A stretch of 64,000 bases of DNA from an uncultured Bacteroidales bacterium (GTDB lineage: Bacteria; Bacteroidota; Bacteroidia; Bacteroidales; Paludibacteraceae), in NCBI GenBank assembly GCA_902798965.1, contig CADBYS010000013.1, positions 1 through 64,000 on the forward strand. Reading direction: 5' to 3'. Positions within the stretch are counted from its first letter, which is position 1. Each line of letters opens with the position of its first letter. The notes beneath the pieces were generated by a model. That model worked only from the letters and a program-made list of their open reading frames with translations. It had not been told where the DNA came from and did not search any database. Positions 54,041-62,536 of this stretch are shown here, piece after piece. The position numbers and the translations under genes were made by a program.

Positions 54041-56956
54041 ATGAAAAAGATTCTCTCGTTTTTCGCTGCAATGCTTGTAGCAGTTGCAGCAAACGCAGCG
54101 GTGATCAACATCGACACTTCCACTGCAAATGCAATTCAAGGTGCATTGAATAGTGCAGCAAGTGGTGACGAAATCGTCTTAGCTGCAGGTACGTACAACG
54201 AGTCTGGTAACTACCTCGCATTTACAGGTAAAAATCTTACTGTACGTGCAGCCGAAGGCGCCGAGGTTATTATCAAAACAGTTTGCCCTGTTCGCCTGAA
54301 AGAGGGCGCTACGGCTGAGTTTATCAACGTCAAGTTTGATTGCAGCACTATTGGCGAGTATGAGCAAGTAATCGTGGCAGCTGATGACACTGACGGCAAA
54401 CGTGTTGTTCTCAACGGTTGCGAATTCTATGGCTGGCAAAAGAACAAGGCCATGATTCAAGCCACATCCAGCAGAAGACTCGCTCAGGTGATGATTACTG
54501 ACTGTTATTTCCACGATTGTATGAAGAGCGTTGTGTTCATGGAGAATACCAATCCCAGCGATTTGATTATTCGGAACTCAACTTTCGCTAACATCTCTAC
54601 CGACGCCTCTTCTTTTTGGGCTGGTGTGATTGACAGCCGTGCTACTTCCGGTATATTCGTAGTTGACCGTTGTACGTTCTACAATGTACTGGCCATGAAC
54701 ACCGACTATGCCGCTGTAGGTAAAGTAAGCAATTCGGCTTCTACTGTCACTAACTCGATCTTTATGTTGCCGGCAAGCCGAGACAACGTACGCGCTATCC
54801 GCGACGTAGCTGAAGCTGTTAACTGCATCACGTATAACTATCTCAAGGATTCCGGTAAAGGTATTCACAGCGATGTGACCAAAACCAACTGCATCCAACA
54901 AGACCCGCTCTTCGTAAATGCTGCTGAGGGTAACTTCACACTTGGTGAAGGTTCGCCGGCTTTGACGCTCGCTGACGGTGAACCGGTCGGTGACCCGCGT
55001 TGGGTTCCCGCTGCTGCTCCCGCACACACCTATACCGTAGCAGGTAGCAGTACTGACTTGTTCGGTACAACTTGGGCTCCCGCTAACACGGCCAACGATA
55101 TGACTCTCCAATTAGACGGAACATACAAATGGGAGAAAGCTGAACTTACTCTTGCTGCAGGTTCTATTGAGTTCAAGGTTTGCCAAGACCACGTTTGGGA
55201 TCCCTCATATCCCTCACAGAACTACGTCCTCAATATCACTGAGGCAGGTATCTACACCATCACTATCACCTTCGATCCTTCGAACAACAGTGTTAACGCT
55301 GTTGCTACCAAGACCGGTTCGGCTGAAGTCCTCCCGACTGTTGCTATGCACGGTAACTTCCTTGGCTCATGGGCTGACACCCAGAACTTCACCGAAGCTG
55401 ACGACAAAGCTACCGCTTCAATCAAACTGACACTTGCTGTCGGCAACTATGAGTTCGGTATGCGTATCGGTGGATCGGGCAACTGGACTGCCAATGGTAC
55501 TGCGTTTACACGCCAGAATAATTCTGCTGAGGTTGTATCCGGACAAGGCAACTTGACACTCGTTGCTGATGCTGCTGGTGAATATACCTTCACATGGACT
55601 TATGCCACCAACAATTTGGCAATCACATTCCCTGAAGCTGCTCAGGTTGTTAAGTTCTACGTCGCAGGTTCAATGACCTCTTGGGACGACAACAAGATTC
55701 CTGTTTACGAAGACAGCTATACCTTCGAGAATATGGCTGCTGGCAAGTACCAGATGAAGGTGGTTGCCGGTGCTGAATGGAAAGGCATCGATGCCATGAC
55801 CGATGTAGCCGGTGGCTTGTATAAAGACCAAGACGGCAATATCTGCTTCATCCTTGATGAGGCTGGCAACGTAACTGTTAACTACACCGAAGAAGCATTC
55901 ACGATGACCGGTAATTTCGTGGCTCCTGAGATGAAGTTGATTGGTATCAACGGTTGGGTGGAAGCAACGGACGCTATCGCAATGACTGCCGCTGAGGACA
56001 AGAAGTCGACAAGCGTTAAACTGAACCTGACCGGTGAGTGGTACGACTTCAAGGTGATCCGTGACGGTGAATGGCTTGGTAAGGCTAACGAAGGTTCCGA
56101 GAACTACAAGATTTGGGCTGACTACAATTGGGTAGATGGTCTGGTTAGAGACTATGAGGGACTGAAGAGTGTATCTCTCCAACCGAATGGCGCCGGTGAA
56201 TACACCTTTACGTATGACTACGCAGCCGGCAAACTCACCGTTACCTTCCCGACCCCTGCTCCTACAGGTATCACTTGGGAACTCAATGGTGGTGCTGCGC
56301 TGCCTAAGGGGTGTGACACCAACGAAGAGCTCTGGGAGGCATTCAAGCCCGATTACAACGCATTCTACAGTGTAACTCGTTCTGATCAGCCGATTGCTAA
56401 TGTTGCAACGTTCATCACAGATGCCATTGGAAGTTCGAGCATGATGAAGAGCGAGACTGCCGGTTGGAAGTGGTTAGGTGACTATGTTATCTACGTTTGC
56501 GGTCACCAAGGTGAGGAAAGTTGGGATTTGACTGCTGGTTCTGAAGCACAGTGGCGCTGGGTTCTTGACTCGTTCTTTAACAAACGCGACAGAACTGCAT
56601 GGCCGATGGGTAGCTCTCACGCTATCTTCACCGAAGCCGGTAAAGAGGAGCATTGGTTGGCTGCTTATGCAGAGATGGTTCTCCCCGAATCTGTAAGCGC
56701 TGAATATACACTGCCTGCTGTTTACAAAGCGGAAGCAACGTTCGGTGGCTGGTATGACAATGCTGAGTTCAGTGGCGAGGCTTTGACGGTTATTCCTGCC
56801 AACTATGCAGGTGCGCTCTACGCTAAGTGGAATAGCCCGGCAACCAACATCGAGAACACCGCTGTTGACGCTAAGGTTGTTAAGCTTATCGAGAACGGAA
56901 AACTCATCATCATCCGCAACGGCGTTCGTTACAACGCTCAAGGACAAATGGAGTAA
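54041..56956 (+). CDS. Secreted beta-helix protein with SusE/F-like modules and short C-terminal tag
   Basis: 971 residues; signal peptide MKKILSFFAAMLVAVAANA. The beta-helix at about 20-320 starts like the 37297 protein (STANAIQGALNSAASGDEIV, VGDPRWVP at its end). Three or four beta-sandwich modules at about 330-765 (FGTTWAPANTANDMTL, YVAGSMTSWDDNKIPVY, MKLIGINGWVEA) resemble SusE/SusF starch-binding-type domains. A segment at about 770-930 ends in an InlB-repeat-like FGGWYDN..LYAKW. The tail is IENGKLIIIRNGVRYNAQG. There is no catalytic motif; binding of a glycan at the cell surface is likely. It has its own promoter and a strong terminator. Confidence 0.8.
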   Translation: MKKILSFFAAMLVAVAANAAVINIDTSTANAIQGALNSAASGDEIVLAAGTYNESGNYLAFTGKNLTVRAAEGAEVIIKTVCPVRLKEGATAEFINVKFDCSTIGEYEQVIVAADDTDGKRVVLNGCEFYGWQKNKAMIQATSSRRLAQVMITDCYFHDCMKSVVFMENTNPSDLIIRNSTFANISTDASSFWAGVIDSRATSGIFVVDRCTFYNVLAMNTDYAAVGKVSNSASTVTNSIFMLPASRDNVRAIRDVAEAVNCITYNYLKDSGKGIHSDVTKTNCIQQDPLFVNAAEGNFTLGEGSPALTLADGEPVGDPRWVPAAAPAHTYTVAGSSTDLFGTTWAPANTANDMTLQLDGTYKWEKAELTLAAGSIEFKVCQDHVWDPSYPSQNYVLNITEAGIYTITITFDPSNNSVNAVATKTGSAEVLPTVAMHGNFLGSWADTQNFTEADDKATASIKLTLAVGNYEFGMRIGGSGNWTANGTAFTRQNNSAEVVSGQGNLTLVADAAGEYTFTWTYATNNLAITFPEAAQVVKFYVAGSMTSWDDNKIPVYEDSYTFENMAAGKYQMKVVAGAEWKGIDAMTDVAGGLYKDQDGNICFILDEAGNVTVNYTEEAFTMTGNFVAPEMKLIGINGWVEATDAIAMTAAEDKKSTSVKLNLTGEWYDFKVIRDGEWLGKANEGSENYKIWADYNWVDGLVRDYEGLKSVSLQPNGAGEYTFTYDYAAGKLTVTFPTPAPTGITWELNGGAALPKGCDTNEELWEAFKPDYNAFYSVTRSDQPIANVATFITDAIGSSSMMKSETAGWKWLGDYVIYVCGHQGEESWDLTAGSEAQWRWVLDSFFNKRDRTAWPMGSSHAIFTEAGKEEHWLAAYAEMVLPESVSAEYTLPAVYKAEATFGGWYDNAEFSGEALTVIPANYAGALYAKWNSPATNIENTAVDAKVVKLIENGKLIIIRNGVRYNAQGQME

Positions 56957-57020: not shown

Positions 57021-57034
57021 GTATTTATACGATA

Positions 57035-57179
57035 TTTAGCCAATCTTTAGCCAATCTTTAGCCAATCTTTATCCTATATTTAGCCTTTATTTAGCCTCCA
57101 AGCCACTACCCTTTAGCATCCATTTAGCTGGTCTTACCGTAGGATAACCGTAGGATACCCATAGGATAACCGTAGGATA
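57035..57179. repeat. Two 11-bp tandem arrays
   Basis: Three exact copies of TTTAGCCAATC (57035-57067) are followed by degenerate copies to about 57097. Four copies of ACCGTAGGATA or one-two base variants lie at 57136-57179. Both have an 11-bp period. They fill part of the 477-bp gene-free gap 56957-57433, whose remainder holds the terminator, an AT-rich palindromic stretch (TATACTATATATATACATAG) and cloverleaf element A. Confidence 0.8.
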
Positions 57180-57237
57180 CCACAACCTTTTTTGACATTT
57201 CTAACATATACTATATATATACATAGTATATATATAC

Positions 57238-57399
57238 TTTTATTTATGTTGTATTGCTTTTGAGTGTTTTGCTCGTAGAGTGGTGATAATTGATGATAAA
57301 AACTATCTAAAAATTTATTTTTAAGGAGTTTTGGGCAGCAATTAGCACAGGATGCGCAAGCATCAAAACACTCAAAAGGGTTTATTTAGGTTTATTTTC
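57238..57399 (+). repeat. Cloverleaf element A
   Basis: 162 bp. Left end TTTTATTTATGTTGTATTGC, right end GGGTTTATTTAGGTTTATTT plus TC. Closing stem 57258-57271 with 57364-57377 (TTTTGAGTGTTTTG and its exact complement); hairpin 1 CTC-GTA-GAG (57272-57280); stem 2 57281-57349 with an apical hairpin; hairpin 3 GATGC-GCAA-GCATC (57351-57364). It lies just past the stop of the DeoR gene, pointing toward it. It is the inverted relative of element B. Confidence 0.88.
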
Positions 57400-57433
57400 T
57401 GAACGTTATCGCAACAGTACCAATATCACTTTT

Positions 57434-58210
57434 TCACACAACTCGCACTTCAACGCCCAAAGCCTTCAGTTTCGATACCATTCCTACGGGTATTGCCCTG
57501 TCGGTAATGATGTAGTCCAGCTCCTCGGCGTTCGCCACGTGCACGAAGCTGCGCTTGTTGAACTTCGACGAGTCGAACACCGCAATCACTTTTGCCGCCT
57601 GTTGTATCATGATCTGGTTCAGCAGCGCCTCTTCCAGACTCGGTGTGCTTACGCCATGCTCCAGCGAGAACGAATCCACGCCTAAAAACAGCTTGTAACG
57701 GCTGAAGTTTCGTAGCACGGATAGTGCCAGCGGCCCAACGGTGGACTGACTGTTCGTGCGCACATTACCGCCAAGCAGCACAACATCGAAGCGCTTGTAA
57801 GCCATCAGCTCCACGGCTATGTTCATCGCGTTGGTGACGATATGCAGGTTCTGGAAGCGATCCAGGTGCCGCGCTACCTCAAGCGTCGTGGTGCCCGAGT
57901 CGAACATCACATAGTCGCCGTCCTTGATCAGTTTGGCTGCCTCCTCGCCGATACGTTCCTTCTCCTTGAAGTTGAACATCTTCTTGGTGTCGATGGCTTT
58001 CTCCTGGTTCTGGTTCTCTACGGGCTTGCGCATAGCGCCGCCGCGCGTACGCAGCAGCAGATGCCGGTTCTGCAGTACTGTCAGATCCTTGCGGATCGTC
58101 ACTTCGGAGATCCCGGTCTCACGGCTCAGTTCCGTGACCGACACTTCCTCTTTCTGTTCCAGCAGGCGCAATATCAACGCCCTGCGTTCCTTTGCCGATG
58201 ATGCATTCAT
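57434..58210 (-). CDS. DeoR/GlpR-family transcriptional regulator (AgaR-like)
   Basis: 258 residues. ATG 58210 gives MNASSAKERRALILRLL; an in-frame ATG at 58243 adds residues encoded by element B and is rejected. The N-terminal winged HTH (VSVTELSRETGISEVTIRKDL, shown in two parts: TELSRETGIS and VTIRKDL) is at about 20-60. The sugar-phosphate sensing domain at about 75-258 has the DSGTTTLEVARHL and VVLLGGNVR motifs usual in DeoR repressors. In other bacteria AgaR of this family controls galactosamine use, and the agaS operon lies upstream here, so a similar role is likely (inference). The gene is bracketed by cloverleaf elements A and B in inverted orientation. Confidence 0.9.
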   Translation of the reverse strand: MNASSAKERRALILRLLEQKEEVSVTELSRETGISEVTIRKDLTVLQNRHLLLRTRGGAMRKPVENQNQEKAIDTKKMFNFKEKERIGEEAAKLIKDGDYVMFDSGTTTLEVARHLDRFQNLHIVTNAMNIAVELMAYKRFDVVLLGGNVRTNSQSTVGPLALSVLRNFSRYKLFLGVDSFSLEHGVSTPSLEEALLNQIMIQQAAKVIAVFDSSKFNKRSFVHVANAEELDYIITDRAIPVGMVSKLKALGVEVRVV

Positions 58211-58231
58211 ATGATTGATGATTATATTTCT

Positions 58232-58391
58232 GAAAATAAACAAATATAAACCCTTTTGAGTGTTTTGAAACTAACGTTTCTTGTGCTACTTGCTGCTAAA
58301 AACTCCTCGAAAGTGAACTATCGGATAGTTTTTATCACCAATTATCACTACTCTCCGAGCAAAACACTCAAAAGCAATAAACATAAATAAA
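58232..58391 (-). repeat. Cloverleaf element B
   Basis: 160 bp, read on the minus strand. Left end TTTATTTATGTTTATTGC, right end GGGTTTATATTTGTTTATTT plus TC. Closing stem 58360-58373 with 58254-58267, the same as in A. Hairpin 1 CTC-GGA-GAG, hairpin 3 GAAAC-GTTA-GTTTC. Compared with A, hairpin 3 and the apical part of stem 2 changed on both sides and keep pairing. It ends 21 bp before the DeoR start codon. The right end contains TATATTTG, which could act as a -7 box. Confidence 0.9.
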
Positions 58392-58485
58392 TTTCAATGA
58401 TCAATTTGGCAATGCATAATGAAATAATGATTCGATAGGCTAAAATGATATACGATGACTATAATACAATATAGAGTATAATAGT

Positions 58486-58926
58486 TTAAAACATATACAT
58501 TGTTCCATCGGAATCTAAATAGTAATGCTCTGACTGATCTTTAATCGGCGCAAAGTTATACAAAATGCCTATACTCTTTTTAGTAAGTCGCATATAGTTC
58601 CATAATTGTTGCCGATGCTCTATACATAACTTCTCTACTGCTTTACACTCAATGATTATACTATCTTCAACCAAAAAATCCACGAAATGCTTATGCGCAA
58701 TCTGCTTACCACGGAAATCTACATGAAAACAATATTCCTTTATATAAGGTATCTTTCGCTCGTCAAACAATATTTGTAAAGCATCTTGATAAATATACTC
58801 ATTTAAGAATGGTCCGAGCTCGCTATGAACTTGTGTACAGCATCCATTCACAGCATAACACCGCTGTTTCAGACTATTCAACCATTCAGGATGTGTCTCA
58901 TCTATCCGTTTAAACGTGTATTGCAT
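58486..58926 (-). CDS. GxxExxY-family protein (PD-(D/E)XK nuclease-like)
   Basis: 146 residues. The family motif appears as GPFLNEYIYQDALQIL (about 38-53). The PD-(D/E)XK-like core follows: DFLVEDSIIIECKAVEKL (about 83-100), with Asp, Glu and Lys in place for metal binding, then HRQQLWNYMRLT and the closing GILYNFAP. These small proteins are widespread and uncharacterised, often near repeats or intervening sequences. Its start codon lies 11 bp from the left end of cloverleaf element C and its 3' end is 94 bp from element B. It is AT-richer than its neighbours, which suggests acquisition. A nuclease acting on hairpin DNA is a speculation based on position. Confidence 0.85.
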   Translation of the reverse strand: MQYTFKRIDETHPEWLNSLKQRCYAVNGCCTQVHSELGPFLNEYIYQDALQILFDERKIPYIKEYCFHVDFRGKQIAHKHFVDFLVEDSIIIECKAVEKLCIEHRQQLWNYMRLTKKSIGILYNFAPIKDQSEHYYLDSDGTMYMF

Positions 58927-58937
58927 ATACTTCGTTA

Positions 58938-59098
58938 TATTTATGTTTATTGCTATTTGTATGGTTGCACCATGTAATGGTAAGGATTAGGTCGATAAGG
59001 GGCACTCAAATATATTTGAAAGTGCACCTTAGCGAACTAAGCCTTAATGTACGTAGTACATGCAACCATACAAATAGTGTTTATTTATGTTTATTTTC
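58938..59098 (+). repeat. Cloverleaf element C
   Basis: 161 bp. Left end TATTTATGTTTATTGC, right end GTGTTTATTTATGTTTATTT plus TC. Closing stem TATTTGTATGGTTGCA (58954-58969) with its exact complement at 59061-59076; hairpin 1 CCAT-GTA-ATGG (58970-58980); stem 2 from 58981-58990 with 59037-59046, plus an inner hairpin centred on CAAATATATTTG; hairpin 3 TGTAC-GTA-GTACA (59048-59060). The stems share no sequence with A/B or D. It occupies part of the 392-bp gap 58927-59318; the remainder holds operators and a promoter. Confidence 0.9.
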
Positions 59099-59159
59099 AT
59101 AAAAATCTCATTTCAGACTGCAAAGATACAAAAAATTTTTGACATTTGCAAATAAAAAG

Positions 59160-59249
59160 TTTCGAATATTTTTTTCGAAACATTACGAAAGGTCTATTTC
59201 GAAACGTAATATATTGTAAATATATGCATTACAAAAAACACTTTCGAAA
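59160..59249. promoter_or_regulatory. Cluster of TTTCGAAA operators before the amidohydrolase gene
   Basis: Sites lie at 59160-59167 (TTTCGAAT), 59173-59190 (18-bp dyad TTTCGAAACATTACGAAA), 59197-59204 and 59242-59249. The last, with the following ATATGT and AGCATA, repeats the layout found upstream of the agaS promoter. Confidence 0.6.
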
Positions 59250-59299
59250 ATATGTTATAGAGCATATAGCAATCAGTTGGAAATTTGAAAAAAAAGTTG

Positions 59300-59307
59300 T
59301 AATTTTG
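59300..59307 (+). promoter_or_regulatory. -7 box of the amidohydrolase gene
   Basis: TAATTTTG lies in the context AAAAAAAAGTTGTAATTTTG, matching the agaS -7 box. ATG 59319 follows after 11 bp and an in-frame ATG at 59331 after 23 bp. Confidence 0.65.
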
Positions 59308-59318
59308 CAAGCAAAATT

Positions 59319-60431
59319 ATGAAAAACGACATGAAAAAGTCTAATCTTCTACTCATTTGTGCCGCTTTTGTGCTTGCGGCTTGCAACGCCCCAAAGGCAA
59401 GTGATTCAGCTGATTCGCCTGTTGACAAGATTTTGCTCCGTGATTTCAACCCCACGGTTGTCAACAACATCCCTGTCACGAATGTTGACAAGGCCAAGTT
59501 CCCTATCATCGACATGCACTCGCATGATTATGTGGAGGATGCCGGGCAGATCGCACAGTGGTGCAAGAACATGGATGAGGTAGGTGTACTGCACACCGCC
59601 ATCATGCATTGCTCATGGATCGGCCGCCCGTTTGAGGAGGTGGTTGAGCTCTACGCTCCGTACAAAGACCGCTTCCGTTTCTGGTGCTGCTTCGACTACA
59701 GCGACATGTCGCCCGAAGGAATCGAGAAAGCTTGCGCCCTGCTGGAGCGTTATCACAACGAGCTGGGCGCTACCGGTGTAGGTGAGCTCGGCGACAAAGG
59801 CGAAGGTGATACCTACGCTCGCCCCGTAGAAGGTCGTGACATTCATATCGACGATCCGCGCATCCAACCCCTCATCCGCAAAGCCGGCGAACTGCACATG
59901 CCGATCAGCATCCATATAGCTGAGCCCTACTGGATGTATCTGCCTATGGATGAGACGAATGACGGAATGGTCAACGCCGTTAATTGGCACGTGGATACCA
60001 CCAACTGCTACGGCTACTGGAAGCTCATGGAGACCTTCGAGAACGCCGTTCGCGAGAACCCCGGTACCCTGTTCATCGCTTGCCACTATCTGAACATGTC
60101 GCACGACTGGCCAACGCTTGGCGCGATGCTTGATAAGTATCCCAACATGTACGTCGACATCTCCGCACGCGTTGCCGAAAGTGCCCACACTCCACGCGCT
60201 ACACGCGAGTTCCTTATTAAGTATCAGGATCGCGTACTTTTCGGTACCGACAACGGCTTCGAACCTGAGATGTATCGCAACATCTTCCGTGTTCTCGAGA
60301 CCAACGACGAGCACTTCTATATCCCCGAGTTCGGTTATCACTGGGCACTCAGCGCCTTCAACCTGCCTGACGATGTGCTCAAGAAGATTTACCACGACAA
60401 TGCCGAGCGCATCCTGACGGAATACAAATAA
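59319..60431 (+). CDS. Amidohydrolase-2-family metal-dependent hydrolase, lipoprotein
   Basis: 370 residues. A lipoprotein signal (KKSNLLLICAAFVLAAC) is best explained by a start at 59331, with 59319 the longer option. The TIM-barrel of the Amidohydro_2 group is indicated by the first metal-binding motif DMHSHD (about residue 67), a central His strand (ISIHIAEPYW), CHYLNMSHDW and the final FGTDNG Asp motif (about 308). Family members hydrolyse or decarboxylate small cyclic compounds. It is not a NagA-type deacetylase, because the NagA blocks are missing. Export as a lipoprotein is unusual for the family. Its promoter carries the same operator block as agaS, so it probably acts on a product of the same glycan pathway. 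Substrate unknown. Confidence 0.82.
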   Translation: MKNDMKKSNLLLICAAFVLAACNAPKASDSADSPVDKILLRDFNPTVVNNIPVTNVDKAKFPIIDMHSHDYVEDAGQIAQWCKNMDEVGVLHTAIMHCSWIGRPFEEVVELYAPYKDRFRFWCCFDYSDMSPEGIEKACALLERYHNELGATGVGELGDKGEGDTYARPVEGRDIHIDDPRIQPLIRKAGELHMPISIHIAEPYWMYLPMDETNDGMVNAVNWHVDTTNCYGYWKLMETFENAVRENPGTLFIACHYLNMSHDWPTLGAMLDKYPNMYVDISARVAESAHTPRATREFLIKYQDRVLFGTDNGFEPEMYRNIFRVLETNDEHFYIPEFGYHWALSAFNLPDDVLKKIYHDNAERILTEYK

Positions 60432-60444
60432 AGATCTTTGAAAA

Positions 60445-60608
60445 TTTATTTATGTTTATTGCCGAAGTTGGCTGTTACATGCAAAGCATGTGTGGATTAG
60501 ACTGATTAGTCGCACGTCAAGCTTGCTTGTAAGGGTGGCTAAACAGACTAATACACAAAGCACAACAGTGCAAACAGACAACTGAGGGGTTTATGTAGGT
60601 TTATTTTC
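60445..60608 (+). repeat. Cloverleaf element D
   Basis: 164 bp. Left end TTTATTTATGTTTATTGC, right end GGGTTTATGTAGGTTTATTT plus TC. Closing stem AGTTGGCTGTT (60466-60476) with AACAGACAACT (60573-60583), one mismatch; hairpin 1 ACATGC-AAA-GCATGT (60477-60491); stem 2 60492-60509 with 60539-60556, imperfect, plus an inner CAAGCTTGCTTG hairpin; hairpin 3 GCAC-AACA-GTGC (60560-60571). It ends 18 bp before the GH36 start codon and begins 13 bp after the amidohydrolase stop. Confidence 0.88.
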
Positions 60609-60626: not shown

Positions 60627-62536
60627 ATGAAACGCAACATTCTATATTTTCTCGGTATTGCAGCCATGATGGTTGCGTGCCAACCCAAGGCTGACACCGA
60701 GCGGCTCATCTGCACCGAGGCGGACATGCAAGCGTTCCCCTATCAGCAAGCCGGGCTGCATGTAGTTAAGCAACAGACCGTCACCCCCGTAGCTGAGATG
60801 CCGGGGCTGGAGGTCATCGAGACCCGCTTCATCAACCTGGGCAAGCCCGTGACCGTCAAGGGCTACGAGCTCTGCCGCACCGAGGTTGAGGCGAAGGAAG
60901 ACGTCGTTTGGTCATTGCAACCCTCCTCCACCAACGCCCGCAAAGATTGGGTGTTGCCCGTCAAAGAAGGCTTTGAGCAAGAGAACTACCTGGGCATGAA
61001 CAATTCCGATTACGGCGGAGGTATCCCCGTACTGGACTTGTGGCAGCGTGACGGTGGCGTAGCTATCGGTCTTCTGGAGCCGGTGCTCCGCATGATCTCG
61101 ATGCCCGTGGAGTGGAAGCGCTACGACAACAAGATCACCGCTTGCCTGCATTACAATCTGCCCGAGGCTATCGAACTGGGTACAGGCGACACACTGCACT
61201 GTTTCAAGGCTTTCCGCCTCTCGCACAAAGGCGACTATTTCAATGCCTTGCGCACCTTCTCGGAGTATATGCAAGCCAACGAAGGCATTAAGTTGCAACC
61301 CTCCGAGCCGCAATCCTTCGAGCCTGTTTGGTGCGCGTGGGGCTACGAGCGCACATTCACCATCAACGAGGTCGTTGGTACGCTCGACAAGGTCGCTGAA
61401 CTCGGCTTCACCTGGGTGGATGTGGATGATGGTTACCAGATTGCCGAAGGCGACTGGAACACCAACAGCCGTTTCCCGGGTGGTGACAAAGATATGCGTC
61501 GCATCACCGACGAGATACACAAACGCGGTATGAAAGCCAAACTCTGGTGGGCTCCGCTGGCTGCCGACCCCGACACCAAGCTCGCCAAGCAACATCCTGA
61601 ACTGCTGCTGCTTACCCCTGGTGGGACAGCTGGTATCTCTCGCCTGTTAACCCCGCTACCGACGCGTACACCAAGGACTTGCTGAAGATGTTCATGCTCA
61701 CTTGGAACTTCGACGGCTTGAAACTCGATGGTCAGCACATGAACTGCTGCCAACCCGACTTCAACGAAGGTACAGGCCTCGAGAGTGGCTGGCAAGCACC
61801 GGAGCTGATGCCTTCGTACTTCGAGAAACTCTACGCCGAGGCACGCCAGATGAAACCCGACGCAGTCATTCAGTTCTGTCCCTGCGGTTGCGCGATCAAC
61901 TATTATATGATCCCTAACTTCAACCAGGCAGTAGCCAGCGACCCGATGTCGTCGTGCCAGGTGCGCATGAAGCGCAAAGCGTACGCCGCCATGGCGCCGC
62001 AACTCGCTTACTATGGCGATCATATCGAGCTCACCGACGGCGGTTTGGATTTCGGCACGCAGATCGGTGTAGGCGCCGTTATAGGTTCCAAGTTCACATG
62101 GCCGAAGGACAACCCCGACGTGAAAGATGGTCCGTTTGTTCTTACTCCCGAGAAGGAAGCCCTCATCCGCAAGTGGATGAAGATATATAAGGAGAACAAC
62201 CTCGCACGTGGTGAGTACCTCAACCTCTACACCTGGGGCTACGACTACCCCGAGGCACACGTCATTCGCCAGAATGATGCGCTCTATTATGCCTTCTACG
62301 TTAATCCCGAAGCTCCGCTTGGCGCAATGGATCCCGCACATGTTGATAAAGCTACTGTTCCCGAACCCACCTATAGTGGTACCTTGGAGCTCCGCGGACT
62401 TGATCCCGCCAAGACCTACACGGCCATCGAATATACCGCCGATGAGCCCCGTGAGTTCACCGTGGATGGCAGCAATCCGAAAATTGACGTAAACTTCACT
62501 CGTAACTACCTGCTCAAAGTAATAGAGAACAATTAA
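60627..62536 (+). pseudogene. GH36-type alpha-galactosidase lipoprotein interrupted by one frameshift
   Basis: The signal is of lipoprotein type (YFLGIAAMMVAC). The first frame (60627 to about 61610) covers the N-terminal beta-sandwich and the start of the TIM-barrel (FTWVDVDDGYQIAEGDW, HKRGMKAKLWWAP). It then runs out of frame to a stop at 61685. The second frame resumes at about 61610 with YPWWDSWYLSPVNP and contains the nucleophile region LKLDGQHMN, the acid/base region ASDPMSS and the C-terminal sandwich, ending at 62536. Joined, the length (about 635) and motif order fit GH36, a family with alpha-galactosidases and alpha-N-acetylgalactosaminidases. The break is at a GCTGCTGCTGCT run. Either a recent mutation or a sequencing error would explain it; a programmed shift is possible but has no classic slippery site. 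Confidence 0.82.

Follow-up and report, generated by a model that had tools for sequence, protein, structure and literature searches.

We describe a family of folded DNA elements, and the nuclease gene that accompanies it, in a 64,000-nucleotide stretch (the window) of an uncultured Bacteroidales bacterium of the Paludibacteraceae (assembly GCA_902798965.1, contig CADBYS010000013.1, positions 1 to 64,000). The element is a cloverleaf of about 160 bp with four copies in the window, A to D, and a gene of the GxxExxY family lies between B and C. We read the element and the GxxExxY clade of the window gene (clade X) as a mobile system resembling repetitive extragenic palindromes (REP) and their REP-associated tyrosine transposases (RAYT), in which a PD-(D/E)XK nuclease stands in place of the HUH transposase, and give this reading a probability of about 0.57. 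The gene, mentioned only in passing in the preliminary description of this DNA, is indeed present, and it becomes central through its linkage to the element, a copy of which lies within 120 bp of the gene at all 33 distinct clade-X loci examined.

In the mechanism that we propose, the element would be the end by which a mobile DNA system is recognised. One of its strands, once single-stranded (for example, at replication), would fold to a four-way junction with mini-hairpin loops of the DNA type, and the clade-X protein, predicted to be a small PD-(D/E)XK nuclease like Cas4 and lambda exonuclease, would recognise and process the folded strand. The autonomous unit would be the gene with an element on each side pointing away from it (58232-59098), and divergent element pairs lacking the gene, as well as solo elements, would be non-autonomous derivatives mobilised in trans. 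The action of GxxExxY on the element, its chemistry and the route of movement are what we infer.

The element family

The features of the window are as follows; R1 is a covariance model built on 34 copies from the source genome.

57239-57399, plus strand: element A, 161 bp, subfamily S1, R1 111.7 bits
58232-58391, minus strand: element B, 160 bp, subfamily S1, R1 114.5 bits
58486-58926, minus strand: GxxExxY gene, 146 amino acids, TIGR04256 / PF13366, proposed partner enzyme
58936-59098, plus strand: element C, 163 bp, S2-like, R1 133.7 bits
58232-59098, no strand assigned: proposed autonomous unit of element B, GxxExxY and element C, 867 bp, elements divergent
60445-60608, plus strand: element D, 164 bp, S3-like, R1 123.1 bits

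R1 places the four elements within two bases of the positions given in the preliminary description. Element C is the 5'-side partner of the GxxExxY gene, oriented outward and 9 bp from its ATG; element B is the 3'-side partner, also pointing away, 94 bp past the stop. The same architecture recurs at a second unit of the source genome (the C2 unit, L033:3439-4261) and in another genome of the genus, G029.

The ends of the element are near direct repeats, as had been noted, and both end motifs are abundant in the genome. Allowing at most two mismatches, TTTATTTATGTTTATTG occurs 47 times (reversed control, 1) and GTTTATTTAGGTTTATTT 43 times (reversed control, 0). The source genome (2.85 Mb in 51 contigs, several of which terminate within or beside copies of the element) has 42 R1 matches. 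Pairing of ends gave 41 candidates, from which six spurious ones were removed to leave 35 copies that were folded; end scanning overlooked some copies that R1 later picked up.

The copies fall into subfamilies, S1 (A and B, 84% identical), S2-like (C) and S3-like (D). The stems of A/B, C and D, earlier called unrelated, turn out to be diverged and can be aligned over the full length of the element. Across 87 copies conservation is mostly 1-2 bits inside the element and at most 0.51 bits just outside both ends; because it drops at both ends, the element itself is the discrete entity.

Fold and covariation

All copies share one plan, in which a closing stem encloses hairpin 1, a long stem 2 whose internal loops are rich in purines, and hairpin 3. 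In unconstrained minimum-energy folds, 28 of the 35 copies from the source genome form the four-way junction and in the other seven the junction hairpins are rearranged; A to D are each among the 28, in agreement with the common cloverleaf first proposed for them.

An alignment of 34 copies (A1; one copy with N removed) was made with MAFFT without structure fitting. On A1, with a structure that came from folds of those same copies, 82.8% of cells are paired (66.0% after shuffling), the covariation score is 0.454 against 0.175 for shuffled and 0.079-0.126 for slid controls, and 41 of the 49 pairs show double-sided changes. Among other species of the genus, 54 matches give a score of 0.647, against 0.196 after shuffling and no more than 0.123 when slid, and 717 paired cells changed on both sides, a tally of sequences and not of events; their alignment (A3) was fitted to the model, is thus biased toward it, and includes one antisense echo and short or partial matches. 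The fold is selected, as was suggested at the outset from A and B, with covariation far above both kinds of control in the two alignments. A covariance search without further copies or significant covariation had been named as evidence against the proposal; both were found.

The probable folding strand

Strand asymmetry is seen in the mismatched pairs. Counted over the 37 pairs (of 49) with 75% or more Watson-Crick pairing (89 elements, model-fitted alignment), G.T outnumbers A.C by 107 to 34, with an excess of G.T in 55 of the 89 elements and of A.C in nine; on the unfitted A1 the counts are 47 and 23. With DNA parameters the mean z of the given strand is -7.8 and that of its complement -5.1, the given strand being lower in 28 of 30 elements sampled from the 89. 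The loop of hairpin 1 is a GNA triloop in 52 of 89 copies and GNNA in 11, that of hairpin 3 is GNA in 49, and the apex of stem 2 is CTTG, CTCG or TTTA in 68. GNA and GNNA loops with G-C pairs are described as extraordinarily stable DNA mini-hairpins (PMC4686876). Because G.T exceeds A.C and the loops are mostly GNA, CTNG or TTTA, the data suggest that one strand of the element, the given one, folds, and that it most likely does so as single-stranded DNA rather than RNA.

Element strand also shows a weak correlation with the GC skew around it (rho -0.36, p = 0.026; 38 copies, from source-genome loci L031-L065 and the window), which is confounded by gene direction and was left unused.

The GxxExxY protein

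The window protein is a clear member of its family, matching TIGR04256 (NCBIfam E 3.4e-30, 104.8 bits, cut-off 35) and PF13366 (Pfam E 4.5e-30). The catalytic residues E43, D83, E93 and K95 are invariant in 30 of 30 clade-X sequences, one of them frameshifted. For pairs limited to 75-98% protein identity and dS <3, the median ratio of nonsynonymous to synonymous change (dN/dS) is 0.06 over 30 pairs, with a median dS of 1.2 that is near saturation; by these sequence comparisons, the gene is under purifying selection. The predicted structure (pLDDT 94) has as its best Foldseek match 4ic1 (SSO0001; E 2.3e-5), which we take to be Cas4, followed at weaker E by LHK-Exo, lambda exonuclease, MGME1 and RecE. 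A sequence profile searched against solved structures gave 4ic1 as its sole match, at E 0.2. From the model we read GxxExxY as belonging to the RecB/Cas4/lambda-exonuclease branch of PD-(D/E)XK nucleases. Identity as a Holliday-junction resolvase or as TnsA was considered and dropped because Foldseek returned these Cas4- and exonuclease-type structures.

Linkage of gene and element

TIGR04256 was searched in 37 genomes of the genus and gave 31 places, two of which fell below the cut-off (L150, L158) and were set aside. All nine full clade-X genes and one fragment in this sample have an element no more than 46 bp away; the 11 loci from distant GxxExxY clades all lack one. A search of 178 genomes of the genus with the window protein gave 28 clade-X loci, five of them already in the smaller sample (two places, G285:C77 and G281:C45, and the partial G286:C8 were left out). 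All 28 have an element within 120 bp, on the 5' side in 25 and on the 3' side in 19. The 5'-side element points outward in 24 of the 25 and in 13 of these it lies 5-11 bp from the ATG; for the 33 loci combined, it is outward in 28 and 5-11 bp from the ATG in 17. Because the linkage holds at every one of these 33 loci, element B, GxxExxY and element C probably constitute the autonomous form.

The presence of the gene also tracks that of the element. Every genome with clade X is element-positive (29/29), as against 69 of 149 without it (p = 3.5e-9), and the median element count, with at most 16 counted per genome, is 12 in the former and 0 in the latter. Within the 37-genome sample, clade X tracks element number (p = 9e-4), and clade Y (p = 0.15) and the other clades (p = 0.12) do not do so significantly; G001, which has GxxExxY remnants, was scored X-positive in this test and X-negative in that of 178 genomes. 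Lastly, distances between proteins correlate with those between their 5'-side elements (26 loci; Mantel r 0.41, p = 0.0002, uncorrected for phylogeny).

Arrangement and distribution

Arrangement was counted on 89 of 111 R1 matches (140-215 bp, overlaps and echoes removed), many of them at loci selected for holding several matches. Neighbouring elements less than 300 bp apart comprise 11 divergent, three tandem and no convergent pairs; at 300-1100 bp there are three divergent, six tandem and three convergent pairs. Among the neighbour pairs listed, all four divergent ones 300-1500 bp apart enclose GxxExxY. Within a divergent unit the two elements usually come from different subfamilies, as left and right ends would (16 units; core identity 0.52-0.70, clusters read by eye).

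R1 matches are present in 98 of the 178 genomes, in a scan that scored at most 16 candidates per genome and whose counts are lower bounds; a separate R1 count within the genus gave 0 to 42 matches per genome. No match was found in 147 other genomes of the order, representing 131 other genera, with at most 20 candidates scored per genome and stricter filters. A scan for the two-ended pattern returned 13 named stretches, all labelled Paludibacteraceae, 'Bacteroidales bacterium' or 'uncultured Bacteroidales', some of these records also bearing the label sheep colon, goat rumen or red deer; none of the viral contigs matches this pattern. Within the sample, the element is restricted to the genus.

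Comparison of occupied and empty sites across relatives, as had been advised, revealed differences between species (the source genome, G001 and G002) at three sites. At the site of A, the element is present in the source genome and G002 and absent from G001. At that of B, the element in G001 belongs to a different subfamily and has the last codons of a GxxExxY gene upstream of it (read by eye); G002 has no element there. At that of D, G002 has the element in the same orientation as the source genome and G001 has it on the opposite strand. What survives of the C2 unit in G001 is the 3'-side element, the outer tip of the other element and roughly half of the GxxExxY gene; the remainder is deleted.

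Weighing the explanations

The preliminary description left two options, a non-autonomous element moved in trans by an enzyme specific for single strands or hairpins, and a structured control element. The first fits best. A control function as the primary role is disfavoured because the element at the orthologous D site occurs on either strand and because the 5' partner is antisense to the gene that follows it.

Several observations weigh against a system mobilised by GxxExxY. The genomes compared are drafts. Neither a target-site duplication nor a circular intermediate was found, nor an empty site that corresponds precisely to a whole unit; for duplications and whole-unit empty sites, the orthologous sites and 16 units were inspected by eye, with no statistical test. 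Elements on both sides of the gene occur in 19 of the 28 loci (1.5 kb covered per side, less at some contig ends), 7 of the 19 3'-side elements within 120 bp point inward and 12 outward, and at one locus the nearest 5'-side element is inward. The left outer flanks are also similar in several pairs lacking the gene, which blurs the boundary of the unit. The intermediate clades are mixed, with a clear element at one of three loci of clade X-prime and one of five of clade Y, weak matches at others, and none at a further X-prime locus from the 178-genome search. Moreover, 17 of the 149 genomes without an intact clade-X gene hold at least 10 elements (one of them, G001, has remnants of the gene); incompleteness, loss or another mobiliser must be invoked for these. 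The protein model is exonuclease-like (4ic1, lambda exonuclease, MGME1), the best matches listed include neither a transposase nor a junction resolvase, and RAYT genes are reported to evolve fast (PMC2817692), unlike clade X with its low dN/dS.

Is GxxExxY then the partner of the element or its passenger? The main rival is that the element is a genus-specific dispersed intergenic repeat moved by another enzyme, with GxxExxY as travelling cargo in the manner of the toxin-antitoxin and nuclease genes found in other repeats. A toxin-antitoxin-like pair (L034:2910-3387) and a HigBA-like pair (L062:566-1283), both judged by eye, adjoin copies of the element, genes other than GxxExxY also lie between repeats in other genera (see below), and element-rich genomes without clade X exist. 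Cargo would be harder to reconcile with the enclosure of GxxExxY by all four wide divergent pairs listed, the tight spacing to the ATG, linkage at all 33 loci and the co-divergence of protein and element, and we consider it unlikely. If it were correct, the finding would reduce to a new family of dispersed structured repeats; even so, a repeat of 160 bp with a four-way junction would be a striking selected nucleic-acid structure.

It is considerably less probable that the element is a structured RNA, cis-regulatory or small, multiplied by recombination. Covariation and tolerated G.T pairs suit RNA equally well, G(CUUG)C is a stable loop in RNA too, and 13 of the 35 copies end within 60 bp of the start of an open reading frame on the same strand. 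Against this stand the GNA triloops, which suit DNA, and the range of 0 to 42 matches per genome of the genus. A role in untranslated regions is further opposed by the divergent pairs, the opposite strands at the orthologous D site and the antisense position of the element with respect to the GxxExxY mRNA, before its start. A search of Rfam at relaxed E with the window stretch and nine further loci gave no relevant match, nor was there a relevant tRNA match, consistent with the earlier impression that this is not a recognised family.

Mobilisation in trans of a REP-like element by a Y1 (HUH) transposase, with the link to GxxExxY secondary, is very improbable. Dispersed folded repeats in inverted pairs are indeed a hallmark of REPIN (PMC3116915). 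No transposase had been noted near the four elements and none is apparent by eye in the neighbouring open reading frames, for which a profile scan was made for Y1 only. In G001, G002, G006 and G029, each with at least 20 elements, there is no match to Y1_Tnp (PF01797); these four genomes are 82-90% complete, and the absence is therefore not strict. The source genome has two Y1_Tnp matches, both partial and near the cut-off. Least credible of all is a passive passenger of terminal inverted repeat (TIR) transposons and segmental duplication: several S1 copies do lie inside a TIR element, but conservation stops at the ends of the cloverleaf itself across 87 copies.

Comparison with known systems

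The case for RAYT was built on a gene flanked by inverted repeats, co-divergence of repeat and gene, and gene presence that tracks repeat number (PMC2817692), and our arguments for the element and GxxExxY from flanking, co-divergence and copy number are the same three. Both systems have dispersed intergenic folded repeats and inverted pairs (PMC2817692, PMC3116915), and in both repeat number follows the gene (29/29 against 69/149 here); a gene enclosed by repeats, as in RAYT, is seen here at 19 of the 28 loci. In contrast, the partner of our element is a PD-(D/E)XK protein like Cas4 and exonucleases and not a Y1 HUH enzyme, and the element is a 160-bp four-way junction where REP is a palindrome of 20-40 bp (PMC3733652). 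The element and GxxExxY are not a member of REP/RAYT, because the defining Y1 class was searched for in four element-rich genomes and not found.

IS200/IS605 transposases recognise subterminal secondary structures on single-stranded DNA (PMC6006769). The likeness to the element lies in folded single-strand structures; the differences are the lack of a Y1 match in the four element-rich genomes and ends that are near-direct repeats of about 17-20 bp around a cloverleaf. The attC sites of integrons vary in sequence while the single-strand fold is kept. Unlike them, the element is four-way and dispersed as solo or divergent copies. Miniature inverted-repeat transposable elements (MITEs), one of which is named 'BrickBuilt' and which have reportedly been studied in P. 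gingivalis (PMC4596501), are likewise small, non-autonomous and intergenic; the ends of our element are direct and not inverted repeats, and the gene linked to it is no known transposase. A literature search, with subscription papers and preprints outside its scope, found no description of the element, of GxxExxY function or of a repeat partner for it.

GxxExxY across the order

GxxExxY is a large orphan nuclease family, matched in 62 of the 113 genera of the order that were sampled. With the element, a folded DNA repeat that selection maintains throughout a genus, it now has a concrete candidate substrate. Flanking repeats (direct or inverted, score of at least 40) were found at 12 of 21 GxxExxY genes and at 21 of the 285 other genes on these stretches; where both gaps are at least 80 bp, the counts are 10 of 11 and 16 of 95. 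The test scored 21 of the 23 GxxExxY genes found, one being the window gene, and several of the repeat-flanked other genes are, by eye, solitary and of a mobile type. In another set of 20 loci, some of them shared with the first, 8 of 19 had flanking repeats. Flanks were shared between GxxExxY copies of the same genome in 2 of 74 pairs, both in G048 and with proteins that start alike; rarely shared flanks are to be expected if each clade has its own repeat, which is suggestive only.

More tentatively, GxxExxY could be a general class of mobilising nucleases in which each clade has its own folded intergenic repeat and no DDE, HUH, serine or tyrosine recombinase takes part; we hold this broader proposal to be doubtful on present data. 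If it were true, the processing of a folded single strand, here a four-way junction, by a Cas4/lambda-exonuclease-like enzyme would be a distinct mode of DNA mobility. Should GxxExxY act on the element described here, it would by itself represent a class of mobile-element enzyme unlike the DDE, HUH, serine and tyrosine recombinases.

Direct repeat copies, many of them hairpin-forming and differing by lineage, were also seen on both sides of GxxExxY genes from other clades, at L069, L136, L164, L172, L173, L175, L179, L181 and L184.

Other features and observations

Element A is a solo copy between the end of the gene at 54041-56956 and the 3' end of a DeoR-type gene, and the end of element B lies about 22 bp ahead of the likely ATG of that gene. 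Element D is likewise solo, between two genes on its own strand, with a stop at 60431 just before it and an ATG at 60627, 18 bp after it.

A small TIR element (TACTGTCCACTATAAA ... TTTTAGTGGACACTAATG) contains several S1 copies or fragments, some of which have lost or gained internal sequence (by eye):

L041:2163-2221, L042:2203-2272, L047:2255-2510, L049:2236-2408, L039:2082-2241: S1 copies in the TIR element

A mini-element at L041:3220-3280 consists of the closing stem alone between two ends. Three sites of the source genome (L034:2372, L065:2028-2056 and L068:1950-1966) have, by eye, flanks like those of the element and a single end repeat without the interior; they are possible scars from which an element was lost between its end repeats. 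In G014, which has no match in the R1 count that spans 0 to 42 per genome, a clade-Y GxxExxY gene is immediately followed by four weak R1 matches in tandem, with a spacing of about 235 bp (L161:1941-2809). Just upstream of element A, the window carries two short arrays of 11-bp period at 57024-57180, of the TTTAGCCAATC and CCGTAGGATAA types.

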